64,000 nucleotides of DNA, taken from assembly GCA_021234155.1 (NCBI GenBank), contig JAJEKV010000008.1:6448945-6512944 (forward strand). The letters are read 5' to 3'. Shown here in pieces: positions 1,041 to 26,900 of the stretch. Under the pieces are notes generated by a model. The model saw nothing but the letters and a program-made list of their open reading frames with translations. It was not told where the DNA came from and searched no databases. Each line of letters opens with the position of its first letter. Positions within the stretch are counted from its first letter, which is position 1. A program made the translations under genes and the position numbers. Source of the stretch: Isoetes taiwanensis. Taxonomy: Eukaryota > Streptophyta > Lycopodiopsida > Isoetales > Isoetaceae.

Positions 1041-2754
1041 TTATTTATTAGGAGACAAAAGTAATGAACTACCTTTTCTTGGTATAGCTCCTAACATTGA
1101 GTGGTCCACAAACATCTGTGTGCACAACTTCCAATGGTGCTTCAGCCCGTTTAGTTTGTTTCTGAAATGGCAGTCTTGTGCTTTTCCCAAGCATGCATCC
1201 CCTGCAAATGAAATTCTTGTATTCTGTTTTATCACTTGTAATATATCCAAGCTTGCTCAAGGTTCTTACATTATTAATATTCGTGTGGCCAAGACGTTCA
1301 TGCCAGGTTCTTAGATTTGAAATTGTCACATTGTTAATTGTTGGCATATGTTCTGTCACATCCGATTCAAACAAATCTCCAACTCTTTTTGCCAAAAAAC
1401 AAATTTTATTATCCTTCTCAACCATATAAAAGAGTTTTTCAAAGGACACTTTAAAACCCAAATCCACTAACTGCCTCACTGAAATTAAATTTTTAACTAT
1501 TCTAGGGACTCATAGCACTTTTTCCACTCTATTGGCTCTCCTTGCAAATTGTACAGTTTTAGCATTCCTGCAACTTCAACTTCTTTGATTCTTCCATCTC
1601 CAGGTCTGATCCGTCTTGAAAACTGCTTCTCATCCTTCTTTGTAAGCAAATTTGAATCCCCTAAGATTTTTCTTTCAGCTCCTGAATCTAAAACAAACAA
1701 TAATTTTAAATCTTTATCTTTACTTGAAATGTTAGAAAAAGCATTGATTACCTCTTCTTCTGAGTCACTTTCTTCATTTTCTTTCACAACAATATTTGTA
1801 CTTGCTGGCCTGATACCTTTGCCTTTTTCCTTCTCAACACCCCCCCAATTACCTTTGCCCCTACCTCTTCCTCGGCCTCTTCTAAGATTCCTTGGGCTGG
1901 GATACTTTGTAGACAAGTGTCTACTCCACCACAAGTATACCAGGTCTTTGTGGTTTGCTTCCATTTTGGGCAATTGAATTTCAAGTGGCCTACCTCTCCA
2001 CAGCCATAACATGGCCCAACCTGTCTATTTCTGCCTTCAACAGAGCTCTTCCCCTTGCTTATCATCAGCACCTCGACTGTATCCTCGTCTTCTTCATCAA
2101 TATCTTCCATCACATACTTCTGCTCAATTTATGTTTGAGCTATATGCTCAGCCTCCTCTCTTGTTTTAGCAACAGTACGTATAAGTGTAGCCAAATGTTC
2201 AAACTTAGAAAACATTCTGGAGATGGCCAAAATCTGATGGCTTACTGACATGGTTACACCAGCAGCCTCCAAGTCCGCATACAGTGAATCAAATCTTTGA
2301 AACATATTTATTTTCTCATCAAATTTAATTTTTCTGATCTCCTTTTCTAATACATCTATCTGAGATGAGCTTTTATCTTGATATGTCTTTATTAAGTACT
2401 TCCAAGCATCTTTGGGATGGAAGTCTCTCAATTTCAGCATTATACATGGTGCCACCTTACACATAGTAATTGCTTTGGCCTGTCCTACTTTCAGATCTTC
2501 ACTAAGCAAATCACTATTATGGCTTCCTCCCTTTGATTTAGCAGTAGAGTCATCTGATTTGGCAGATACTGTTTCACCTATTGGAGTTGTAGGAGAACTG
2601 CTTGCTTCTTCTGCTACAGTAGCATTTGGCTCAATGACGTACCATAGTCCTTCAAATTGCAGCACTTCTTTAATTTTCTCTTTCCATATTTGAAAGCCTC
2701 CAACTGAAAAACCTCAACTAATCCCAACAGAGTTGCTCCAAACCTTGTGGACAT
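1041..2754 (-). pseudogene. Truncated Copia gag-pol (family A)
   Basis: This is the 5' half of a Ty1/Copia polyprotein read on the minus strand in several frames. Gag starts at the ATG at 2754 (MSTRFGA), shifts frame near 2700, and continues through the UBN2/retrotran_gag region containing SSSQIDVLEK. A CCHC zinc knuckle follows (CYGCGEVGHLKFNC, near 2025-1985). The protease-like part has LDSGA near 1690. The GAG-pre-integrase segment has TWHERLGH and the HHCC-type cysteines CRGC. The integrase core starts (VVHTDVCGPLN) but is cut off just after YTKK near 1070. Reverse transcriptase and RNase H are absent. The gag opening matches the Copia gag at 57,034, so both belong to one family, in opposite orientation. 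The frameshifts and truncation mean it is dead. The domain calls are secure; the exact breakpoint near 1040 is approximate. Confidence 0.9.
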
Positions 2755-4177: not shown

Positions 4178-4732
4178 ACGACGTATCTTTCATAACCCGT
4201 TATGCACAACCCTAATTCAAACACAAATATTAATGCTAAGATGAGAGGCTACTACGATTTTAAAAGGAAATTTGAGAAATTTATATCTTACCCTATATAC
4301 TTCTTACGATCTAAATCTATTGTAATACCTCTTATGACCTAAATCTATTGTCTAGGAAAGAAGAACATTATAATACCCACACTTTAGCACCCCAGGTCAT
4401 ATGTCTGGATGGCATCGCCACACCACCTCCCTCTTGCTGTGAGTCTTTTGTAGCCATCCCTATGATAAAGCGCTAGAAAAATCATGTTTTAGTTAGAAGA
4501 CCATAAATATTATATGCACACAATTAAACATTTGCAAATACATCTTATTAACCATATATACACTCTTAAGCTAATGTAAATCCACACGAAGTCGAGTGTA
4601 CAATTGCTTTTTGTTTTAATATTAAGCAACAAGCTCGAGTCTTAGTTTTATCCTGATATTAATCACAGTTTCATTAAATATGGACAATACCTTGAATTGT
4701 GGACTTTTTATAAAACAGACGCTTCGATAACA
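4178..4732. other. AT-rich spacer
   Basis: No coding signal. It contains one short internal duplication (the 'ctaaatctattgt' unit at about 4309 and 4343) and otherwise AT-rich sequence leading to the 3' end of the transposase pseudogene. Confidence 0.5.
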
Positions 4733-7700
4733 CTAACATACATCCCCGGCAAGTGCCGCGTATGCTTCTGCAACAAGCGTAGGAATCTTGACAGTGTTTG
4801 GTAGCTTCTTCTTATTCGAAGGACTCCAAGCATAGTCGATACTCTCTATCTCAATGCGGTCACTAGCAGTCGTCGGCCTCCATCTCTTCTTCCAACAATT
4901 GACATAGTTGGACATCTGGTTCCTAACAGGGACAGGCTCCCACCAAGTGACCTGGATAGTCTCGAAGTTGTCTTTCTTATCATCCATTTGGGGTTCCTCT
5001 GTAGCATATCCTAGCCATGTTGGGCACAAGACATCATCAATACAAACATGCCCTTCTTCAAATCCTTGAATGGATTGAATTCTGGTACGGGCTTATCCTT
5101 CAATGGACCAACATAAGCAGGAGTGATGGTTGCAATTGGCTCCACCACAGCCACCACATCAGGTATGTCAAGTCTATCTTGCCTAGTGCGCGGCCAAAAG
5201 TCCTCGTAAGGATCTTCCACGTTGGTGATGTTACCCAGATGCTGCAAGAGTCCCATCCAATATTCAATTGTCGCCGTAAATTGTGCTGTATATTTGGCCG
5301 TCTCTGGTGTGCCCTTCCTATTCGTCGAGCATGCGATCCAATGGAGGATATGCTTATGGATACTGTTTCGGAGCTGACCAATGTCTTTCACCGAGGTCTT
5401 AGGTGCTAACATCTTCGGATTTCCAGATGGCATTAGGGGTTTTCCATTCTCTCCTTCTTTCCACATTCTTATTCTAGCAGCAGGTAACCAATCCACGAAC
5501 GTAGGACGAGCCTTATGGTACATGACAGGCCAGTCACCATTCATAGCAAATCTAAAGGTCAGAGGCTCAGTGTGACCAGTCAATCTATCTTCCCCATCAG
5601 GGATATACCCTTCTATAAAACCTTTCCAATCTGGAACCTTATCAACAAGATATGGCACTGGCGTGTTGAGATTGCACGTATGAAATTCATACAACTCGGG
5701 CATGGTTAGCACTTCGGCTTTCTTCAAGGTAGATGAAAAATTACCAAACATAGCATCTATATCATCATGAGTATGGCCAGGCATCATAAAACCTAACTCA
5801 ATCTCCTCGAAAACACCGAGATATACAAGGTATGAAAGATATGAGAATACATACCTATTTTTGTTTTGTCCAGATGCATTGTCTAGTTGCAACATCAATT
5901 GCTTCAATGAGGGTCCCTCCGGTTGAGGGAGGGCAACGGGGATGCTCTTGCCAGATAGCGACAACTTGGACGCTAGCGCGGTGGTGTCACGTAAGGCCCT
6001 TGCCCAATCTGAGACTGATGGATCAGACAATGCAAGATGGCCTCCTGCAAACTCATTAGGCAGCTCCAACTTTTCAAAATACTATTCAAGGAACCTACGT
6101 GGAAGTTGGAGTCGTCTGACCACAGATCCAAAGCAAAATTTCCATAGGACCCTCTCCCATGGCCGTGGGTAAGTGCACCTGTCAATGAAGTCTTTAGCTT
6201 ATCTAGTCTCCAAAGGGACTTCACGGATTGTAGCAACTTTGGAATCATAGTCTTTGCCTAATCCATTTTGTCGTGAATGATACATACATAGTCTCCAGGA
6301 TGCCTGTGGGATAACAGTCTTCATGACCAGTACTGGGTGCGACATGATTGCTGCTCTAGTCTATGTGCCCTTCTCTGATCATGCAATATTCTCCTTTCAG
6401 CCTCATCCTTGGTCTTCAACAGCTTCGTCCGGATAACCTCGCAAGTGTCACACTTGGAGAATGCAATCTTCTTAGCAATACTGACGTCCTTGAAGCTACG
6501 TCTCCACGTTCTATGAAATCCTGTCGGAGACACCTTCTTGCCTGTGAGTGCCATCACTTCAGTGTTGACCTCTTCGAGAATGCAGGTCTTCGTAAACATA
6601 GCAGGCAACTTTCTCACATTTTCTCGAATCCCATCATCATTCCTCCTGCTACAGTGAGGTAAGGATTCACAATTTTCCTTCACAAACATAGAAAAAGCAG
6701 CCTCTGAGGCCAAGGTCGCGGCACGTGCTTTCATCGTGCCTGAATTGCCATGCTCAGCCTTTCGAGCACCGGAGCGGAATTGTGCCTTCCACTTGAGATA
6801 CCCTGACTTTGAAATCCCAAGACCAAGGTACCAAGCTCTCTCACAGACACTGACGCCTTGCAAGACTAGCCGATGTACTCTTCTACCCTTTATATTGTTG
6901 CCTAACATATCATACACAAAAGTGGTCCTGTCACTCGATTTCATGGCAAAGAAATCCTTTCGCATGTTTATAGCTTGATCCCTACTGAATTTCTCACAAC
7001 ATCTCTGTTTGCAACACATGGTCTTCCTATACCTCAAGATGGATTCATTGGTTGTTAGCCGATCTATCTTTGGAGGCTTTGATGCTTTCTTTGACTGACG
7101 AGAATGGAAGGTGTATTTACGCTTCTCGTACTGCAGATGCTTCTCAAGCTCCGAGCTGCCCTGGCTCGACGTCGTATCATGTTGTTCCACTGGTGCTGCA
7201 CTTAAAATCTCCGACACCTTCACCCCAGAAACCCTAACTAGATCATTATTCCACCTCAAAAGCATGCCCGCTTTAGGTACTGTCAAACATGCCTGACACC
7301 GGAAGTTCACCTCTATCGGAGGGGGAAAGCCTTCAGTAACAGACACTCCTACGGTCTTCATACCCAAAAACTGGTCACATACTGCATCGTCTGGACCAAT
7401 GAAGGATATAAATCCCTTCGCTGCAGGGATGGCAGCACAAGAGTGAAAAATTTCGCAGTCAGTCTCCAGTAGTGTGTACCTAGTTAGCGACATAGTGTCT
7501 CTGTTGCTTCCCACTCGCTGTCTTTTGGATGCTGATGGCACGTCCACGACATTGGAGTCGTGACCATCACTTTCCCTCCAGAGAATGAAGGAACCTAGGG
7601 CCTCACCTAAGGTTCTTGCATCTGGAGTAGGCCAACAGAGAACATGATGCCCCTCAAACACAGCTAGAACACCAACACTCACAACTCCATCTGGGATGTC

Positions 7701-7781
7701 TTTAAAATGGCATCTATCCCTGGCTCCTATGGCTCCTTTGACACCAGCCCGACCGTCTTTGAATAGGTACACCTCCTGCAC
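4733..7781 (-). pseudogene. DDE-like (DUF7869-type) transposase, decayed
   Basis: Minus-strand coding region in three blocks. Block 1 (7781-6321, 486 codons) is basic and Cys-rich in its middle (CCKQRCCEKF), and its start sits on a strong splice acceptor (T7-GTGCAG at about 7777), so upstream exons are expected. A TGA at 6323-6321 is followed in the same frame by VCIIHDKMD, a TAG, then AKT. This is the first acidic site of the DUF7869-type RNase-H-like core (usual form D-x-MD-Q-x-KT). Block 2 (6248-about 6075) has LTGALTHGHG and DDSNFHV. A frameshift near 6070 leads to block 3 (to 5011) with LQLDNASGQNKNR and GHTHDDIDAMF, the second and third acidic sites. Another shift near 5025 leads to the tail with IQVTWWEPV. 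All three acidic positions survive, but two stops and two frameshifts make this copy inactive. The family assignment comes from motif memory and the transposase role is inferred. Confidence 0.72.
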
Positions 7782-7804
7782 AAAAAAATGAATCAGTTTT
7801 AGAG

Positions 7805-8305
7805 CAAAGTTGTAGCAGATGGTCCTTAGCAGGTGAAATTGGGCGGGCGCCCAATTTGCTCCCTGTTGTAGTGGTCCTCAGCGGATCAAATTGGGAACCC
7901 GCCCAATTTGTTCCCAGTTGTAGTCGTCCTTGGCAGGTGAAATTGGGCACCCGCCCAATTTGCTCCCTGCTGTAGTCGTCCCTGCTGCTCCCTGTTGTAG
8001 TGGTCTTCAGGAGTTGAATTTGGGCACCCACCCAATTTGCTCCCTATAGTGATGGTCTTTAGAAGTTGAAATTGGGCACCCGCCCAATTTGCTCCCTGTT
8101 GCAGTGTTCCTTAGCAGGTGAAATTGGGCGGGCGCCCAATTTGCTCCTTGTTGTAGTGGTCCTTAGCAGTTGTAATTGGGCACCCGCCCAATTTGCTCTC
8201 TGTTGCAGTGGTCCTTAGCAGGTGAAATTGGGCAGGCGCGCCTAATTTGTTCCTTGTTGTAGTGGTCTTTAGCAGTTCTAATTGGGCACCCGCCCAATTT
8301 GCCAG
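7805..8305. repeat. 52-bp minisatellite with palindromic core
   Basis: About nine to ten units start at 7836, 7888, 7940, about 8017, 8069, 8121, 8173, 8225 and 8279, so the period is 52 bp with one longer step. Each unit carries a palindrome built from CAAATTGGGC and its complement GCCCAATTTG around 2-4 variable bases, then a 'ctccctgttgtagtggtcc' linker. The array lies just upstream of the splice acceptor of the minus-strand transposase, so it may be intronic. Confidence 0.88.
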
Positions 8306-9766
8306 TACAGGAGGTCTATCTGCCCATATGTAGTTACTCAGGAATCAAATTAGGCACCCACCCTACTTGGCCTTGCACATCTACCTGGGTATGAAATTGA
8401 GCAAGGAACCCGATTTGCTAACCCAGCTGGAATTTAATTTGGCCATTCGCATCTACCTGGTGTGTCTAATTGGGTTGTAACCAGGACAGCTTCTATGCTA
8501 CCCCAGCTAGAATCTAGGCTACATCAGTTATGTTGGGGGGACCGCACATGCATCTCTCAAATTTCTATTTATTTCTCAAATCTTCTCATCAATAATGTTC
8601 TATACCAATCTAGGCATCTTAATATCAGCGCATGCAACCCACAGTGGCAAAGGGGCAAAAGTATGCTAGTGGGTATCAAAAAAACGCGGCCCCAGCACTT
8701 AGATCAGCACCCTGGATGTACTATTCTATCATAGTATTCCACTTGTTATTAGTTGGAGTTGTTACATATTTCTATTGATTACCTAATTACCATGTGCTAG
8801 TACCAGTAACACCTTAAACAAGCTGCCATATGGGGTGCTATATGAGTGCTGTCAGCATGTGTCCGGACGCCTGCTTTTGATACCCACCAGCATACTTTTG
8901 CCCAAAGAATAAACGTATAAACCGAAAGAAATTTACCTTTGGTGAAGTGCACGCCATCCGCTGAACAAGTAGCCGCCCAAGAATGTGAGAGAACGAAATG
9001 GCTTAGCCGCTCCGCTTCCTTGAGACTAATTCAAAATTCAAATCTCCCACGAGAGTTTGATTGGGCGGGCGGGCGCGTAATATAAATTCAAATTCAAATT
9101 CGGGCGGGCCCGTAATTCAAATTCGGGCGGGACCGTAATTTTAAATTCAAAATCGAGCGGGCGGCCCGTAATATAAATTTAAAATTGGGCGGGCCGCGTG
9201 AGAATTCCAAATTTAAAATTTAAAATTTAAATTCCACGACGTCTATATTAATTTAAAAATCCGCATTTAATGTTTCGGGCACATTTATTGCAAAAGTCTA
9301 TCTTTATTGTTATTTGTTTTGGTCTATATTTAGTTAAAAAGGTCTATGTAAAAGGCTCTTCATTTGCATGGCTGCCACTTGTCATTCACCTGTTCAATCT
9401 CACCGCCCATTCCTTTTCGCTTGCTCATTCATTCCTTTCCGACAACAGTTGCCTGTAGTCTTATTCTCTGAGGATCACGATACGCCTATCGTCTTCAAAG
9501 TGATTGCGCCTCCCATCATATCTTCTAAGCGCCCTCTCTGAGCATCCAAGCGCCACTGCTTTTCATGGAACGTCGACCCTCGAAGGCAGGAAAAGGTACT
9601 GCTTTTTTGTTCAGCTTTAGTTTATTATATTACTGCAGGCGATAAGCCACTGGCCATTTGCATTCTTGCCCTAAATGAAATTCTCAGCTATCCTACATCC
9701 ATCATTTTTTGTTTCTATGCTTCTAAACCCTCTGGCGCGCACCTCTGGCCGCTTGGTTGTTACTAA
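8306..9766. other. Spacer with GC/AT alternating block
   Basis: No supported gene. Degenerate versions of the palindromic unit trail off to about 8480. At 9055-9235, GC-only blocks (gggcgggc, gggcggcccg) alternate with AT-only blocks (ataaattcaaattc, taaatttaaa), giving strong local compositional swings and many short inverted repeats. This could be a subterminal or terminal region of a mobile element, but no TIR pair was found. Confidence 0.45.
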
Positions 9767-10325
9767 GTACCTCAGAAGTTGTGTCCTCTGCACCAAATAA
9801 CCCTCTGGCCCATTGCATCTTTCTAAGTACCTCAGAAGCTGTGTCCTCTGCACCAAATAACCCTCTGGCCCATTGCATCTTTCTAAGTACCTCAGAAGCT
9901 GTGTCCTCTGCACCAAATAACCCTCTGGCCCATTGCATCTTTCTAAGTACCTCAGAAGCTGTGTCCTCTGCACCAAATAACCCTCGGCCCATTGCATCTT
10001 TCTAAGTACCTCGGAAGATGTGTCCTCTGCGCCAAATAACCCTCTCGCCCATTGCATCTTTCTAAGTACCTCGGAAGTCGTGGTCCTCTGCACCAAATAA
10101 CCCTCGGCCCATTGCATCTTTCTAAGTACCTCGGAAGCCGTGTGTCCTCTCGCACCAAATAACCCGTGGCCCATTGCATCTTTTTAAGTACCTCGGAACA
10201 CTGTGTCCTCTCAGACCAAATAACCCTCGCCCATTGCATCTTTCTAAGTACCTCAGAAGCTGTGTCCTCTGCACCAAATAACCCTCTGGCCCATTGCATC
10301 TTTCTAAGTACCACAGAAGCTGTTT
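9767..10325. repeat. 60-bp minisatellite
   Basis: About nine tandem units of exactly 60 bp, with three consecutive ones near 9787-9967 almost identical. Units to the right carry small indels. Because 60 is divisible by three, long ORFs are open on both strands (20-residue repeats such as SEVLRKMQWARGLFGAEDTA on the minus strand). This is a by-product of the period rather than evidence of a gene. Confidence 0.92.
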
Positions 10326-10379
10326 CCATGCATCCACACACCCTCTGCGGGTGCCGAAAAGCTGTTTCCATGCTTCTAA

Positions 10380-10885
10380 ATGTCCTCTGGGGTGGCAAAT
10401 TGGGCGGGCGCCCAATTTGGGACCCTCTTGCCTCTCTACGTGCTTCCAAACCTCCTCCGGTGCGGCAAATTGGGCGGACGCCCAATTTGTCAAACTCGCC
10501 TCCTTTCCTGCTTCCATTGCACTCCTCTGGGGTGGCAAATCGGGCGGGCACCCAATTTGGCACCCTTTTGGCTATTTCCCTGCTTCCAAATGTCCTCTGG
10601 TGTGGCAAATTGGGTGGGCGCCCAATTTGGGACCCTCTTCCCTCTCTCCGTGCTTCCAAACCTCCTCTGGTGCGGCAAATTGGGCGGATGCCCAATTTGT
10701 CACCCTCTTGCCTCTGTTCCTGCTTCGGAAACTCCTCTGGGGTGGCAAATCGGGCGGGCGCCCAATTTGGCACCCTCTTGGCTCTTTTCCTGCTTCCAAA
10801 TGTCCTCTGGGGTGGCAAATTGGGCGGACGCCCAATTTCGCACCCGGTCCTCTAGTGGGGCAAATTGGGCGCACGCCCAATTTGA
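10380..10885. repeat. 70-bp minisatellite with the same palindrome
   Basis: Units begin (at the AAATT of the palindrome) at 10398, 10467, 10537, 10607, 10677, 10747 and 10817, a period of 69-70 bp, with a shortened last unit at 10862. Each has arms CAAATTGGGCG and CGCCCAATTTG around a two-base spacer. The linker (cctctctccgtgcttcc...) differs from the 52-bp array at 7.8 kb, so only the palindromic core is shared. Confidence 0.92.
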
Positions 10886-10944
10886 TGTCCTAGGAACATT
10901 TAATTTTTCTGATGACACGGTTGTGGGCTTCTCTGTGCCTTTCT

Positions 10945-11583
10945 GTCCATCACTCTTTCTAGCAAGTCCATAACGTGACCTCAACCACGCCGTGTGATAG
11001 ACCTTTGGTTGGCTCTTTCCATGATATTCTGTATAAAGGGCTTTTGATCGATTTTGTTTGTGATCGAGTATCCACTGTCTAACTGTATTAAATCCATCAA
11101 TAATATCTCCCCGTTTGGTCAGTCCAGATTTCTCAAGGCTTTCGTAAGAAGCCAAGACCCAGCCCTTGGCTTGAGACGAATGTGGAGCCTCAGTGATGCT
11201 TGCATGCATTTGTAAGTTTCGAAGGGTAACCTGTATCCTTGAAATGACTTATCAAGCACGTCTTCCACGACAACATCTATCTCGTTGGCAACCTCAGTGC
11301 TCACATTCATGTCAATTGCTATGCCAGCATTCTGTGTCCTCCGAGTCCCGGGCTCAGCAAAGTACAAGCACAGATCCTTGAGATGATTTGTGCTAGAGCC
11401 AGGGTGGATTGGGCCTACATCTATGCATCATGAAAACTTATCGGCTACAGCAGTCATTAGCTCTGGGACGACTTCAATACCATTGAACTGAATGCTTGAA
11501 TCTGCTTCCTTTGCTGCAGCAAATGCCTGTGCCAACGGAGGGCCAGATCCAGGTACATGTGCAGTTTGCTTAGTTCTGGCCAT
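10945..11583 (-). pseudogene. ORF with histone H3-tail-like N-terminus
   Basis: Minus-strand ORF with an ATG at 11583-11581 in a strong context (ACCCATGGCC). The protein opens MARTKQTAHVPGSGPP. Residues 1-8 equal the start of histone H3 (Met plus A1-R2-T3-K4-Q5-T6-A7), after which similarity stops; K9 and the rest of the H3 tail are absent. The frame meets TGA at 11430-11428 after 51 codons, then stays open (GIAIDMNVSTEVANEIDVV) to about 11200. There it shifts into a second frame (FNTVRQWILDHKQNRSKAL) that reaches about 10,945 before running into the 70-bp minisatellite. No known fold is recognised beyond the tail. It is on the same strand as the transposase at 4.7-7.8 kb, whose first visible exon begins at a splice acceptor, so the two could be one split gene with the minisatellites in introns. 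That link is inference. Confidence 0.55.
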
Positions 11584-11737
11584 GGGTGCTGCATAACATC
11601 ATTCATTAATCCCATTAGTAGTGTATGCAAGCATTAAAACAAGGTAGGGGATGCCCCCCATAGGGGGTTTGAAAGCACGAAAAGAGGCAAAAGGGTGCCA
11701 AATTGGGCGCCCCCAATTTGCCCCACTAGAGGAGGTT
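11584..11737. other. Divergent spacer with lone palindrome
   Basis: This short gap separates the H3-tail-like ORF (minus) from the methyltransferase-like ORF (plus). At 11,699-11,720 it holds a single copy of the CAAATTGGGC / GCCCAATTTG-type palindrome seen in the 52- and 70-bp arrays. A shared bidirectional promoter would lie here if both genes were expressed. Confidence 0.5.
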
Positions 11738-11740
11738 TAG

Positions 11741-12664
11741 AGACACGGATTTATCGCTCCAGATCGTTTGAGTGAATGCTTGTCCGCCATGAAGACTATA
11801 GACGGAGGTAGTCGTGTATGGGTGGGAGCGTACCAGGATCCAAAAAAGAGAAACCCTTCATCTCGTGTTCGCGAGCTGCAGACCCTTGTTCTGGTAATGT
11901 ACGTGGCCGGAGACCAAGCAGCTGCCCCTGCTATGCATGACCTGAATCTATGCTTCAACGACGCGGACCATCCTCAAGAGTATTCGAAGTTTCCGCAGCA
12001 CTTGAAAGAAGTGGAGGACATAGAGAAGAACCTCCCCGATCATGAGTGCGCAGCAGGTAACATGGTTTAAACTTGTGTCTCTGTCCATTTCTTTTCAATA
12101 CCACTTATAACGGTTGTCTACTTTCCTTCATCATACTGGTTGTATCGGCCTTGGGGTGATAAGAGTGCGGGAGGAGGCGCGGGTGCTCTTTTGCCACATC
12201 AATTGGATTCCAGGACATGCACATACCTAGTGCGGAAATTTATGCTAGAGGGTTGCAGTGTCCTTGATTTCTTCTCCGGAGGATCGTTTAGCCGTGCAGC
12301 TTTGTGTGAAGGGTATAAAGCTATTGCCTTTGAGATTGATGAGAATATGCAGCTTAAACTTGTTCAGATTTTTGATCAACTCGAAGTAATGCTGGACGAG
12401 AAGAAATCGAGAGCCCGTGCTTTGCAAAAAATAGCAGAGGGAAAAAAGAAAGCAAGTGGCTCCAAGGCATCGACAGTAGCGACCGCTACTCCACCTCCTT
12501 GTCCATTCCCTGCACAAACAGTGCAGGAGTTGCAATCCACTCTCCGAATGTCTAAGGATTTTGTCACAGACCATTTGAGAAAGGTGGGAGGTTTTGGAGC
12601 AAAGGACATGTCTTTCTTTAGAAAGAGAAGGAGAACATTAATGCATTGGCGGGCACTGCACTAG
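11741..12664 (+). CDS. N4/N6 DNA methyltransferase-like ORF (partial)
   Basis: Two plus-strand blocks. Block 1 (11,741-about 12,056) encodes LSECLSAMKTIDGG, then LQTLVLVMYVAG and HDLNLCFNDADHPQEY. It ends at AGCAG|GTAACA, a plausible splice donor. Block 2 (about 12,140-12,664) encodes YRPWGDKS, then VLDFFSGGSFSRAAL and AIAFEIDEN, then a Lys/Ala-rich linker and a basic C-terminus. The order 'P-x-x-K, VLD-x-F-x-GGS, AFE-x-D' matches motifs X and I/II of beta-class N4/N6 amino-DNA methyltransferases (usual motif I form DPFxGSG). The catalytic D/N-PP-Y/F motif, expected upstream, is not visible, so the copy is 5'-truncated or missing exons. It lies head to head with the H3-tail-like ORF. The methyltransferase call rests on motif I and its spacing; another Rossmann-fold enzyme is possible. 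Confidence 0.45.
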
Positions 12665-13821
12665 TGTGCACCCAAGATCTGGTCGAGGGTAGCTCGAAGT
12701 TTACGCAGCTACTCCTCAAGGACCAAGAACCTTCTGTTGTATTGGAGACACAACCGTTGCTCTTTTGCAAAATTTGGCCTGCCCAGATACCTCAGATTCT
12801 TCAAAAATAGGGAATGCAAGTGCTTAGTTCTATGGGATTTGTCATTTTTAAGCCCAAGCGGTTGGAGCTGCTATGTACATATTTTACTCCTTTATCTTCT
12901 CTTTTGTTACTGATGTTGAACAACAATAGGATAAGGTTCTTCATTGAAACTGAAACCAAAGGCCTCAAAATCACCAAAGACCTCAAAATTGGCTATTCAG
13001 GTAGATAGCTTTGCTTCGATTTCTTTATGCTGTTGTATTCTCTTCTCGGGTGGCCCGAATTTAGTAGAAGTTTTTTGCATGTTGTAGAAACTGCCACAGG
13101 TCCAGCTTTATCCAAGTCAGCATTTGAACCTTTCAATTGTAGCCTTTGATTGGTAGAAAAGGATTTAATGGTGCTAAAAGTTAGATCATCATAGATATAT
13201 ACTCGGTTTTGCCTATCACTTATGTCTCTAAACTTGGGCGTCTCTGTTTTGAGCTAGATTATTAAATGATTCCTTGCTGCGTTTTTGCTTCCTTGTGTTT
13301 TATTCTACAGAAAGAACTTCTAAAATCAATGTTTAGACGATTTTTTGCTTGATTTTGCAGAGAATATAATATACAAGCTACACTGCTTCTGATATAATAC
13401 TGCCTATGATTTCTACGCTGGTTGTGATATAAGTTTTCTTATGATGCAAAATTACAACTAATGGTCTTACTTTGCTGTTACTTTGTTGTGCTAAAATAAT
13501 TTGATCCACTTAAAAACTTTTGGCTGTTGACAAATATGTCCGACGATTCAATGTGCTCTAAGGTCATCTATAGGATTTTTGTTTGCTTTGAATAGCCACA
13601 AGATAAAAGCACTCAACAATGTGGCATCTCTAGGGAGTAATATGCCATATTTCAGTAATACAAGTTTCCACCTTTGTAACTTCCTCTTTAGTGAGCAATG
13701 TAGTAAAATTTCAGTAGTTTCCACGTTTCTTTAACATTCATTTTTATAAAGCCCATGCACTATCAAGATATCTTCCAACATACTTCTACAAATTGCAATT
13801 TTTAATTCGATGTTATTCAAC
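12665..13821. other. Spacer without genes
   Basis: AT-rich, with no motif-bearing ORF. The minus and plus ORFs near 12,801-13,008 overlap each other and show no domain. Confidence 0.55.
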
Positions 13822-14334: not shown

Positions 14335-14772
14335 ATGCCAAAGAACAAAGGAAAGGGAGGAAAGAACCGCAAGCGAGGTAAAAATGAAGCAGATGATGAG
14401 AAGCGTGAGCTTGTCTTCAAAGAAGATGGCCAGGAATATGCCCAAGTGCTGCGTATGCTTGGAAACGGCCGTTGTGAAGCTCTATGCATCGATGGTACCA
14501 AGCGTATGTGCCATATCCGAGGTAAGATGCATAAAAAAGTCTGGATTGCTGCTGGTGATATAATTTTAGTAGGTCTGCGTGACTATCAGGATGATAAGGC
14601 AGATGTTATATTAAAATATATGCCAGATGAGGCCCGTCTCCTTAAGGCCTATGGTGAACTTCCCGATAACCTTCGTCTTAATGAGGGTATTGCTGGTGGT
14701 CTTGATGAAGAAGAAGAGGGTGGTGGTGATGACTACTTGGAATTTGAAGATGAAGACATTGATAAGATTTAG
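14335..14772 (+). CDS. eIF1A: Translation initiation factor eIF1A
   Basis: Complete uninterrupted 145-residue ORF. eIF1A binds the A site of the 40S ribosomal subunit and, with eIF1, promotes scanning and start-codon selection. The basic N-terminal tail ([19 protein letters not shown]) is diagnostic. It is followed by the OB-fold core (about residues 25-95; [38 protein letters not shown]) and an acidic C-terminal tail ([17 protein letters not shown]). The length equals that of plant eIF1A, and no residue looks lost. A single exon is normal for plant eIF1A. The ATG follows a GA-rich leader with a MITE just upstream. Part of the 3' end and 3' UTR is duplicated about 1 kb downstream. Cytosolic; very likely functional. 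Confidence 0.96.
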
Positions 14773-20949: not shown

Positions 20950-23900
20950 TATTTAGACAGTCCTGAGGCCTTCCCGAAGAGGGGCCCCTGAACGGAGGAT
21001 CCAACGGTCGGATAGGGGAACCGGGCTCCGGGAGGGTGGTCATTAAGCGTCACGGCCCCCCGGGAGCGCCGAAGGGCTACCTCGGGAACTTTTTTGGATC
21101 CCGCCTCCTGGGGTCCGGACTCTCCCCTCTTGTGAGGGATCCCTGCAAGGTCCTGGCCTCGTTTGACTTGGGGGAGGGTGCCAGCTTGGTTGCCCCGCAA
21201 CGGGCTGCCCCGACCGTTCTAATGCTAACCCTTTGACCTAGACCTTCTCCGAAAATTCCAAAAATTGGGCTGTGTGCTGGAGATGAATTAGGAATCCAGC
21301 TGGCAAAAAATCAGAATTTATTTTCGTACAATGCATTAATTGCGAATTTATGAATGTCTTGCCACTGCAAAAGCGCCCCCCGACTTCTACTTGCCACATC
21401 GGGAGGAAGACAGGCCCAAACTCCGCTCCGTCAGTTCCCCTTGCTCCGTATTCTCAGCTGCAGCCACTCGGCCAGGTCCCAAGTGCAACAGACCAAGTCT
21501 CGGCTCTCAAAACGCAAACCCTTCTAGAACCTGGCAACCCACAGGGTTTACGTTTTGGAGGCCCTCTCCTTGTCAGATTCGGGCGGGACCTTGCACCGTG
21601 ACTTGACGTGGAGTGGGGGTGTTGACGCCAAAGCACGGACCCTAAAATCCCCCCGGAAGCTGCTTGCCCCGAATTTCCTCTCCCCAAGGCCCTGGGGACG
21701 GACGGGCGACGCGATTTGGCTCTGCCAATGGACTCAGAACGTCGACATTGCCTTGGGGACCAAGTTCCGTGGCCAGAAGACCACCCGACCTCCAAGAAGC
21801 GCCAAAGTAGCTCACTTCCATCACACTCGTAGTCAATTGGCCTAGGATGTGGATGCGGGATACTGTCGTGGAGGGCGTGAGTGTTTCTTTCTTTTGCAAA
21901 ACCGACCTTGTAACTTGCTCCCTAGGGTAATTTCGCCATTCCGGACGATTTGGCAGGGTCGATTTGCCATTCCGGAGCCTCCCCGGGGCCCGAACGATAA
22001 AACACTGCGGTTTATACAAGCCCGACCTCAGAACGCCCCGCGGTTTGACAAGTTCTCCCGGACCGATCTGGAACCTTTTGTGCCTTCCCGAAGAGGGGCC
22101 CCTGAACGGAGGATCCAACGGTCGGATAGGGGAACCGGGCTCCGGGAGGGTGGTCATTAGCGTGCAGCCCCTCGGGGGAGCGCTGCCAGGAAGGGCTGCC
22201 TCGGGAACTTTTTTGGATCCCGCCTCTTGGGGTCCGGACTCTCCCCTCTTGTGAGGGATCCCTGCAAGGTCCTGGCCTCGTTTGACTTGGGGAAGGGTGC
22301 CAGCTCGGTTGCCCTGCAACGGGCTGCCCCGACCGTTCTAATGCTAACCCTTTGACCTAGACCTTCTCCGAAAATTTTGAAAATTGGGGGCTGTGTCTTT
22401 GGAGATGAATTAGGAATCCGGTGGCAAAAAATCAGAATTTATTTTCATACAATGCATTAATTGCGAATTTATGAATGTCTTGCCACTGCAAAAACGCCCC
22501 CCGACTTCTACTTGCCACATCGGGAGGAGGACAGGCCCAAACTCCGCTCCGTCAGTTCCCCTTGCTCCGTATTCTCGGCTGCAGCCCCTTTCGGCCAGTC
22601 CCAAGTGCACAGCAGACCAAGTCTCGCCCCTCAAAGCGCAAACCCTTCTAGAACACGGCAACCCACGGGGTTTACGTTTTGGAGGCCCTCTCCTTGTCGG
22701 TCGGCCGGACCTTGCGCCGTGACTTGACGTGGAGTGGGGGTGTTGACGCCAAAGCACGGACTCTAAAATCCCCCCGGAAGCTGCTTGCCCCGAATTTCCT
22801 CTCCCCAAGGCCCTAGGGACGGACGGGCGACGCGATTTGGCTCTGCCAATGGACTCAGAACGTCGACATTGCCTTGGGGACCAAGTTCTGTGGCCAGAAG
22901 ACCACCCGACCTCCAAGAAGCGCCAAAGTAGCTCACTTCCATCACACTCGTAGTTAATTGGCCTAGGATGTGGATGCGGGATACTGTCGTGGAGGGCGTG
23001 AGTGTTTCTTTCTTTTGCAAAACCGACCTTGTAACTTGCTCCCTAGGGTAATTTCGCCATTCCGGACGATTTGGCAGGGTCGATTTGCCATTCCGGAGCC
23101 TCCCCGGTGCCCGAACGACAAAACACTGCGGTTTATACAAGCCCGACCTCAGGACGCCCCGCGGTTTGACAAGTTCTCCCGGACCGATCTGGAATTTTTT
23201 GGGCCTTCCCGAAGAGGGGCCCCTGAATGGAGGATCCAACGGTCGGATAGGAGAACCGGGCTCCGGGAGGGTGGTCATTAGCGTGCAGCCCCCCGGGGGA
23301 GCGCTGCCAAGAAGGGCTGCCTCGGGAACTTTTTTGGATCCCGCCTCTTGGGGTCCGGACTCTCCCCTCTTGTGAGGGATCCCTGCAAGGTCCTGGCCTC
23401 GTTTGACTTGGGGAAGGGTGCCAGCTCGGTTGCCCTGCAACGGGCTGCCCCGACCGTTCTAATACTAACCCTTTGACCTAGACCTTCTCCGAAAATTTCG
23501 AAAATTGGGCTGTGTGCTGGAGATGAATTAGGAATCCAGCTGGCAAAAAATCAGAATTTATTTTTGTACAATGCATTAATTGCGAATTTATGAATGTCTT
23601 GCCACGCAAAAGCCCCGACTTCTACTTGCCACATCGGGAGGAGGACAGGCCCAAACTCCGCTCCGCCGGTTCCCTTGCTCCGTATTCTCTGGCTGCAGCC
23701 ACTCGCCAGTCCCAAGTGCAACAGACCAAGTCTCGCCCTCAAAACGCAAAACCCTTCTAGAACCTCGGCAACCCACGGGGTTTACGTTTTGGAGGCCCTC
23801 TCCTTGTCGATTCGGCCGGGACCTTGCTTGGCGCGGACTTGACGTGGAGTGGGGGTGTTGACGCCAAAGCACGGACCCTAAAATCCCCCTAAGCTGCTTT

Positions 23901-26900
23901 CCGAATTTCCTCTCCCCAAGGCCCTAGGGACCTGACCTCCCAGGACGATTTTGGCTCGCCAATGGACTCGGAAACGTCGACATTGCCTTGGGGACCAAGT
24001 TCTGTGGGCGAAGACCACCCGACCTCCAAGAAGCGCCAAAGTAGCTCACTTCCATCACACTCGTAGTTAATTGGCCTAGGATGTGGATGCGGGGATCTTG
24101 CCGTGGAGGGCGTGAGTGTTTCTTTCTTTGCAAAACCGACCTTGTAACTTGCTCCCTAGGGTAATTTAGCCATTCCGACGATTTGGCGGGGTCGATTTGC
24201 CATTCCGAGCCTCCCGGTGCCCGAACGACAAAACATCTTGCGGTTTATACAAGCCCGACCTCGGGGCGCCTAGCGGTTGACAAGTTCTCCCGACCGATCC
24301 GGAACCTTTTGTGCCTTCCCCGAAGAGGGGCCCCCGAATCGGAGGATCCAACGGGCCGGATAGGGGAACCTCCCGGGAGGTGGTCATTAGCGTCTCGGCC
24401 CAGGGAGCCCAAGAAGGGTCGCCTCGGGAACTTTTTGGATCCCGCCTCTTGGGGTCCCGGACTCTCCCCTCTTGTGAGGGATCCCCGCAAGGTCCCCGCC
24501 TCGTTTGACTTGGGGAAGGGTGCCAGCTCGGTTGCCACAGCGGGCTGCCCCACCGTTCTAATACTAACCCTTTGACCTAGACCTTCTCCTAAAATTTCAA
24601 AATTGGGGCTATGTCGGAGATGAATTAGGAATCCAGCTTGCAAAAATCAGAATTTATTTTCGTACAATGCATTAATTGCGAATTTATGAATGTCTTGCCA
24701 TTTGCAAAAGCGCCCCCCACTTCTACTTGCCACATCGGGAGGGACAGGCCCAAACTCCGCCCGGCCGGTTCCCTTGTTCAGTATTCTTGGCTGCAGCCAC
24801 TGGCCAGTCCCAAGTGCAATGACCAAGTCTCGCCCCCGCAAAACGCAAAACCCTTCTAGAACCCGGCAACCCACGGGGTTTACGTTTTTGGAGGCCCTCT
24901 CCTTGTCGGTTCGCCGGGACCTTGCGCGCGGACTTGACGTGGAGTGGGGGTGTTGACGCCAGAGCACGGACCCTAAAATCCCCCCGGAAGCTGCTTGCCC
25001 CGAATTTCCTCTCCCCAAGGCCCTGGGGACGGACGGGCAACCTCCCCTCTCCGGAATCGCGATTTGGCTTTGCAAATGGACTCAGAATGTCGACATTGCC
25101 CTGGGGACCAAGTTCCGTGGCCAGAAGACCACCCGACCTCCAAGAAGCGCCAAAGTAGCTCACTTCCATCACACTCGTAGTCAATTGGCCTAGGATGTGG
25201 ATGCAGGATACTGTCGTGGAGGGCGTGAGTGTTTCTTTCTTTTGCAAAACCGACCTTGTAACTTGCTCCCTAGGGTAATTTCGCCATTCCGGACGATGGC
25301 AGGGTCGATTTGCCATTCCGGAGCCTCCTCGGTGCCCGAACGACAAAACACTGTGGTTTATACAAGGCCGACCTCGGGGCCTTGCCGGGTTTGACAAGTT
25401 CTCCTGACCGATCGAATTTTTTGGGCCTTCCCGAAGAGGGGCCCTCGAATGGAGGATCCAACGGTCGGATAGGAGAACCGGGCTCGGAGGGTGGTCATTA
25501 GCGTCGCAGCCCCGGGAGCCGCGCAGAAGGGCTGCCTCGGGAACTTTTTGGATCCCGCCTCTTGGGGTCCTGGACTCTCCCCTCTTGTGAGGGATCCCCG
25601 AAAGGTCCCGCCTCGTTTGACTTGGGGAGCGTGCCACTCGGTTGCCCCGCAACGGGCTGCCCCCGACCGTTCTAATGCTAACCCTTTGACCTAGACCTTC
25701 TCCTAAAATTTCAAAAATTGGGCTATGTCTTTGGAGATGAATTAGGAATCCAGCCGCAAAAAATCAGAATTTATTTTTGTACAATGCATTAATTGCGAAT
25801 TTATGAATGTCTTGCCATTGCAAAAGCCCCCCCGGCTTCTACTTGCCACATCGGGAGGAGGACAAGCCCAAACTCCGCCCGTCGGTTCCCCTTGCTCCAG
25901 ATTCTCGGCTTGCGGCTTCTCCCCAGTCCCAAGTGCAATGACCAAGTCTCGCCCCCCAAACGCAAACCCTTCTAGAACCTGGCAACCCACATGGTTTACG
26001 TTTTGGAGGCCCTCTCCTTGTCAGATTCGGCCGGGACCTTGCGCCGTGACTTCACGTAGAGTGGGGGTGTTGACGCCAGAGCACGGACCCTAAAATCCCC
26101 CGAAGCTGCTTGCCCCAAATTTCCTCTCCCCAGGCCACGGGGACCCGAGGGCGACCTCCCCTCTCCCAATCGCGATTTGGCTCTGCCAATGGACTCGAAC
26201 GCCGACATTGCCCCGGGGACCAAGTTCCGTGGCCGTAAGACCACCCGACCTCCAAGAAGCGCCAAAGTAGCTCACTTCCATCACACTCGTAGTCAATTGG
26301 CCTAGGATGTGGATGCGGGATACTGTCGTGGAGGGCGTGAGTGTTTCTTTCTTTTACAAAACCGACCTTGTAACTTGCTCCCTAGGGTAATTTAGCCATT
26401 CCTGGACGATTTGGCGGGGGTCGATTTGCCATTCCGAGCCTCCCCATGCCCGAACGACAAAACATCATGCGGTTTATACAAGGCCGGCCTCGGGGCGCCC
26501 AGCGGTTTGACAAGTTCTCCCGACCGATCTGGAATCTTTTGGGCCTTCCCAAGAGGGGCCCTCGAACGGAGGATCCACGGTCCGGATAGGGGAACCGGCC
26601 CGGAGGGTGGTCATTAGCGTCGGCCCAGGGGGCGCCGCCAGAAGGGCTGCCTGGGAACTTTTTGGATCCCGCCTCTTGGGGTCCGGACTCTCCCCTTGTG
26701 AGGGATCCCCGCAAGGTCCCGCCTCGCCGGACTTGGAGAAGGGTGCGGCTTCGGTTGCCACTGCAATGGGCTGCCCCGACCGCTTCTAATGCTAACCCTT
26801 TGATCTAGACCTTCTCCTAAAATTTCAAAAATTGGGCCGTGTCTTTGGAGATGAATTAGGAATCTAGCTGGCAAAAATCAGAATTTATTTTCGTACAATG

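Follow-up and report, generated by a model that had tools for sequence, protein, structure and literature searches.

Sequence evidence for histone H3 tail mimicry in transposable elements of Isoetes taiwanensis

An open reading frame (ORF) on the minus strand at position 11583 of the window (the whole 64,000-nucleotide stretch analysed, C1089:6448945-6512944) begins MARTKQTA, an exact match to Met plus residues 1–7 of histone H3. From its sequence and its relatives, this ORF is the broken start of an accessory gene of a DUF7869 DNA transposon, a gene that in the family lies divergent from the transposase. Mimicry of H3 by the transposon is strongly supported by sequence comparison: among the frame-intact copies compared, the tail shows less amino-acid change than any other eight-codon window, and the same N-terminus recurs in a second class of mobile elements in the same genome.

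The window copy

The window ORF, MARTKQTAHVPGSGPPLAQAFAAAKEADSSIQFNGIEVVPELMTAVADKFS, which opens MARTKQTAHVPGSG..., has 51 aa and a TGA stop; past that stop, homology of its frame to intact relatives continues to about 11122. The original prediction of an ORF opening like H3 was right, with coordinates correct to within the stop codon. The features of the element are as follows.

4664–12753, no strand: extent of the transposon copy, which starts at a left terminal inverted repeat lacking its outermost AAGC and runs to the end of homology; right end lost
4736–7877, minus: remnants of the transposase gene, with DUF7869 (PF25273) in 5014–6081 (E = 3.8e-32)
7836–10883, no strand: 16 copies of the 22-bp palindrome AAATTGGGCG-SS-CGCCCAATTT, with ≤4 mismatches
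10888–11749, no strand: segment of the element that is inverted when compared with the C1070 copy and matches L023 4292–3419 at 95.7% identity
11122–11583, minus: frame of the ORF including the part past the TGA; longer open frames homologous to it occur at other places in the genome (e.g. 590 and 549 aa)
11428–11583, minus: TGA-ended 51-aa ORF, corresponding to exon 1 of the H3-tailed gene (5' part, truncated)
11560–11583, minus: MARTKQTA codons (initiator Met and H3 residues 1–7), next codon CAT (H)
11589–11591, minus: CAG, 5 bases upstream of the ATG, that may be a 3' splice site
11768–12070, plus: exon 2 of the H3-tailed gene, 3' part (SECLSAMKTIDGG...), in uninverted orientation
12071–12661, plus: remnant of exon 3 with motif LDFFSGGSFSRAALCEGYKA, methylase-like by eye (RsrI methylase, E = 0.33, not significant)

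The window element is collinear with the C1070 copy on the plus strand, save for the inverted segment and ∼2.2 kb that are missing, and the homology between the two stops at 12753. By its sequence, the window copy is a decayed, dead relic of a large DUF7869 DNA transposon family. Because the ORF is truncated and lies in an inverted relic, a product from 11583 is unlikely here, and for this copy the original prediction of a functional mimic is not supported. Its assignment of the region to mobile-element DNA and not to a histone gene is borne out, the ORF lying in transposon DNA linked to a DUF7869 transposase.

Elsewhere in the window, fragments at 1072–2713 (minus strand) resemble, by eye, Copia-type Gag and integrase (HERLGHTNINNVRTLSKLGY). 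Closely similar ORF stretches (GASYKVGFAKERNTHALHDSIPHPHPRP...) recur at 21457–26800 (minus strand), which indicates kilobase-scale repeats, and a 145-aa ORF at 14335–14772 (plus strand) is one that we take, by eye, to be like the translation factor eIF1A.

Structure of the element and linkage to the transposase

In relatives, the H3-tailed gene apparently has several exons, assigned by eye from open frames: exon 1 of ∼540 aa with the tail, exon 2 of ∼360 aa, and exon 3 with the motif given above. No significant family, and no known DNA-binding or other domain, emerged when the protein was searched against Pfam, PHROGs, NCBIfam, and PDB profiles. Identities as ParB or as a methylase, suggested by motifs seen by eye, found no support in database profiles: ParB gave no profile match in the exons scanned, and the RsrI methylase match of exon 3 is weaker than its coiled-coil match (E = 0.051), neither being significant. 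An extra conserved ORF (LDTLTCLMTFDDLHA...GITLD.WLHG.ATGR...) lies 3' of exon 3 in L045 (3981–4385, minus strand), L047 (4760–5221), and L095 (4617–5072); its L045 and L047 copies gave no significant Pfam family.

The best-defined ends are those of the C1063 copy, an element of about 11.6 kb with ∼25-bp terminal inverted repeats in which 23 of 25 end bases are equal (AAGCACAGTTTCATTAAATATGGAC and AAGCACAGTTTCATTATTTATGGAC) and with a 5-bp duplication, CCATT, on both sides. A clean target-site duplication was not seen in the C1032 and C1055 copies.

Linkage was assessed with the 114 best DUF7869 relatives of the window (121 rows, from which 7 second pieces were dropped) and 150 places of the tailed gene. 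Fifty-one of the 114 lie within 25 kb of a tailed gene, against 0.5 expected. Divergent orientation was found in 46 of these 51 pairs, the other five, including the window copy, being on the same strand, and the spacing is 3.7–4.8 kb in 32 of them. A wider genome search for DUF7869 gave 9,907 candidates (best 150 scored). The domain present in the window is here paired with a divergent H3-tailed gene.

Conservation of the tail

The genome searched comprises 1,658,258,908 bp in 1,110 contigs. The family query was the protein minus its tail (best 150 of 756 candidates scored), so that retrieval was unbiased by the tail. From the best 150 we read 35 copies: 12 that include the window, 20 that span 43–65% identity, and 3 with element ends. 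MARTKQTA is present in 23 of the 35 and MARTKQTAR in 21. The proposed end of the match after residue 7 therefore holds for the window copy, where residue 8 is H (as in one other, L016, of the 23 MARTKQTA copies), and fails for the family, which in those 21 copies includes R8. Retention of the tail in intact copies linked to a DUF7869 transposase, the check that the original prediction had put forward, is likewise seen (23/35 with MARTKQTA; 51/114 linked).

The 12 copies without MARTKQTA carry MARTKSTAR (n = 3), MARIKKTAR, MARTKLTIR, or MARTKSTIR (n = 1 each), or are defective in the tail, with MARAKQTA-stop, MARTK-stop-TAQ, or an indel in or near the tail (four copies: L028, L032, L035, and L096). 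The MARTKSTAR copies (L040, L042, and L095), with Q5 changed to S, form a subfamily of the window's transposon. K9 and S10 are missing from this family, so only readers of A1–R8 could be engaged.

We then compared codons in 26 frame-intact rows, after dropping nine (L009, L010, L028, L029, L031, L032, L035, L037, and L096) in which the stretch contained a stop codon, the aligned start lacked Met, or the tail had an indel. The need for a Met and an open frame biases the set towards intact copies, not towards ARTKQTAR. In the tail, pS was 0.689 and pN 0.054, and in the following part 0.615 and 0.244, giving pN/pS of 0.08 for the tail vs 0.40 for the rest; since the rows are mutually related, these figures are descriptive. 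For the 236 pairs below 70% identity, pS and pN were 0.899 and 0.066 in the tail and 0.777 and 0.314 in the rest. Among 110 eight-codon windows, pN is lowest in the tail. A1, R2, K4, and T6 are invariant in all 26 rows, with variation at positions 3, 5, 7, and 8, and 15 DNA spellings of the tail encode 5 peptides. These comparisons demonstrate, at the codon level, that the H3-identical N-terminus is maintained by purifying selection on the protein. A signal at the DNA level, such as a promoter or splice element, was ruled out, as silent sites of the tail vary freely (pS 0.69–0.90).

Position of the tail at the start of the protein

The ATG of the tail is present in all 35 copies. In 29 of them, CAG or TAG lies ≤11 bases before it, and in some a CTAAC resembling a branch site lies upstream; an intron thus probably ends there. 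We compared the spacers that separate transposase from tail in three subfamilies (C1063, C1032, and C996) with palindromes masked; tblastx gave 0 matches at E 0.01 in 3/3 pairs, which argues against a conserved coding exon ahead of the tail there. An internal position of the tail, reached through a conserved upstream coding exon, was rejected on this result. A coding exon of unconserved sequence may lie upstream, and the simplest reading of the sequences is a noncoding 5' exon with translation starting at the tail ATG. As proteins starting with Met-Ala normally lose the Met, A1-R2-T3-K4 would be free as in H3.

H3 tails elsewhere in the genome

Genome-wide, the MARTKQTA pattern, which also admits Ser at R2 (present in none of the 100 sites listed), has 2,079 sites (995 + 1084), and its reversed control has 0. 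Chance would give ∼0.1 site in 1.66 Gb, as estimated from the specified bases of the pattern, in agreement with the original judgement that a chance match is very unlikely. A comparison pattern for the H4 tail has 16 sites genome-wide. MARTKQTA gave 0 matches in viral contigs, a set that may omit records near the window's genome.

Seven of the first eight tail loci have sequence of the H3-type fold downstream, often broken; that of L008 matches Pfam Histone (E = 5e-23) and H3.3 in PDB (2e-21). We chose forty of the 100 listed sites, mainly for the variety of their codon strings and with L048 repeating L007, and sorted them by eye into 2 ordinary H3, 4 of the window's family, 4 of a further family, and 30 charged ORFs. 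L068 and L069 are canonical H3 genes. The further tail-bearing family (L007, L048–L050, and L061; MARTKQTARIHPGGVRPGDYISPPSSSD...) is mostly decayed, and an ORF downstream in L007 (WYASAPHDNEE...) looks, by eye, like the middle ORF of gypsy-type elements.

Many sampled tail sites belong to Ty3/gypsy-type elements coding for a giant H3 that has both the tail and the histone fold. One such element, at C1:1573501-1592000 (L089 + L022), has LTRs 90.9% identical and a duplication GTTGA. It codes for Gag, protease, and RNase H domains and for an integrase C-terminal domain that includes a chromodomain (E = 1.6e-10); no Pfam match was significant for the pieces of its reverse transcriptase and integrase core. 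A second, at C4:268000-285500 (L021 + L090), has LTRs 89% identical. Both have an extra 5' gene in which a long charged linker joins a MARTKQTARK tail to H3-fold sequence. No relation between the gypsy-type element and the window element was found beyond the tail.

A genome search with the fold only (best 150 of 8,127 candidates scored) led to nine loci being examined, of which five have an exact MARTKQTA upstream and three have tail and fold in one open ORF. L100, L102, and L105 are open ORFs of 386–394 aa with an intact H3 tail and a fold that starts ∼300 residues in, and 43–45 of 85 positions of this fold equal the host's canonical H3.

Palindrome arrays

Arrays of the 22-bp palindrome occupy non-coding parts of the family's elements, with 10–15 sites in each of four spacers and 8–13 in each of three right-hand element parts (≤4 mismatches), and the palindrome is common to three subfamilies whose proteins differ greatly. 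No sites were found in flanks, the rest of the window, and two gypsy-type loci (about 103 kb compared), nor in 50 shuffles of the window spacer. Exact palindrome sites number 2,161 genome-wide, with 0 in the reversed control; of 50 sites listed, 22 (on C8, C20, C105, C138, and C162) lie ≤10 kb from a listed tail site or a best-150 tailed place, and the other 28 are not near one.

The shape of the palindrome suggests a putative operator-like site for a dimeric protein. That protein could be the transposase instead of the H3-tailed protein. The arrays may also be functionless, minisatellite-like tandem repeats, as tandem duplication alone is able to spread palindrome repeats of this kind.

Proposed function and alternatives

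We favour, with moderate confidence, a reading in which the accessory protein would bind the palindrome arrays on its own element copies and display its H3 tail there as a decoy or tether. The tail would titrate or recruit host proteins that read a free H3 N-terminus, candidate partners being PHD fingers of VIM/UHRF1-type factors, H3K4 enzymes, and DNMT1/MET1-type enzymes that contact H3. This would lead to anti-silencing or targeting on a local scale, as with the VANC proteins that VANDAL elements encode. The exact H3 tail in a second element class, the gypsy type, of the same genome was counted for mimicry.

VIM proteins fill the role of UHRF1 in plants. Known systems offer precedents: tandem-repeat motifs in noncoding sequence are the binding sites of VANC proteins, which cause silent marks to be lost (PMC10398659); the PHD finger of UHRF1 reads the H3 N-terminus with unmodified R2, loss of this contact is reported to cause hypomethylation, and DNMT1 is contacted by H3R8 (PMC6316679).

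A wider reading, which we put forward as speculative and consider doubtful, joins both element classes: DUF7869 transposons would use the H3 tail as a DNA-targeted decoy on their own palindrome arrays, and gypsy chromoviruses would use a giant H3 that could be built into nucleosomes at their own copies and read by their own integrase chromodomain, a self-made chromatin address.

Among the alternatives to a tail-displaying decoy, we regard as unlikely a role in integration or localisation, in which the tail would tether the protein, together with the transposase complex, to chromatin, active or silent, via readers and without anti-silencing. It would account for a conserved tail linked to a transposase and for the combination, in one gypsy-type element, of a tail gene with an integrase C-terminus bearing a chromodomain, but the palindrome arrays sit in the element itself, which fits action on its own copies. 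R2, K4, and T6 of H3 can be modified, and the tail could be a substrate rather than a ligand, with host enzymes modifying these residues and so regulating the activity or stability of the transposon protein. We consider this improbable: the three residues are indeed invariant in all 26 intact rows, but so is A1 at the very N-terminus, which would go unexplained unless the enzyme needs it.

Slimmer still is the chance that the likeness to H3 is incidental to a basic N-terminal peptide that serves for localisation or determines stability. Among the exceptions, KSTAR, IKKTAR, and KLTIR are still basic, but an exact H3 start in two element classes, with 2,079 pattern sites, and a tail pN that is the lowest of the 110 windows speak against it. 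Capture of a histone H3 exon at the window locus, the alternative that the original prediction had named against itself, is contradicted even with canonical H3 genes in the genome, as the match is limited to residues 1–8, what follows it in the aligned relatives is conserved protein of non-histone type, and scans of pieces of exons 1, 2, and 3 found no histone fold. A chance match in a junk ORF, short and broken as the window ORF is, is ruled out by conservation among copies and by selection at the codon level.

Relation to known systems and significance

VANDAL transposases are of the Mutator type, and we know of no VANC protein with an H3 tail. VANC of Arabidopsis VANDAL is, like the protein studied here, encoded by the element beside a DNA transposon's transposase, and VANDAL elements have arrays of short-motif repeats in their noncoding parts, as does the window's family (PMC10398659, available excerpts). 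The systems differ in that the transposase here is DUF7869, the H3-tailed protein gave no significant Pfam family, and anti-silencing by it is a prediction.

PAF15 (with UHRF1) and the SNAG domain (with LSD1) are host mimics of the H3 tail that engage H3 readers. Like them, the transposon protein has its H3-like N-terminus directly at the start codon; it differs in matching H3 residues 1–8 exactly (21/35 copies) and in being encoded by a mobile element, and its binding to a reader is a prediction. Among retroelements, one tail-bearing element resembles the Ty3/gypsy chromoviruses of lycophytes in its LTRs, its Gag, protease, and RNase H domains, and its integrase C-terminus with a chromodomain, and the excerpts of that description available to us do not mention the additional 5' gene seen here, with its H3 tail and remnants of the H3 fold (PMC3350952). 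Judged by titles and the starts of abstracts, the open-licence literature yielded no report of transposable elements that carry H3 tails or H3 genes.

Viruses and a few host proteins are known to mimic histones. Here such mimicry appears in plant transposable elements, under selection, at high copy number, and beside a transposase and operator-like repeats. ARTKQTAR, ARTKSTAR, and ARIKKTAR constitute a natural set of H3-tail variants shaped by selection, and the H3 variants encoded by retroelements raise the question of whether a mobile element can supply a histone to a nucleosome. If the proposed function is true, it would give transposons a concrete, testable route to counter or exploit the chromatin code.
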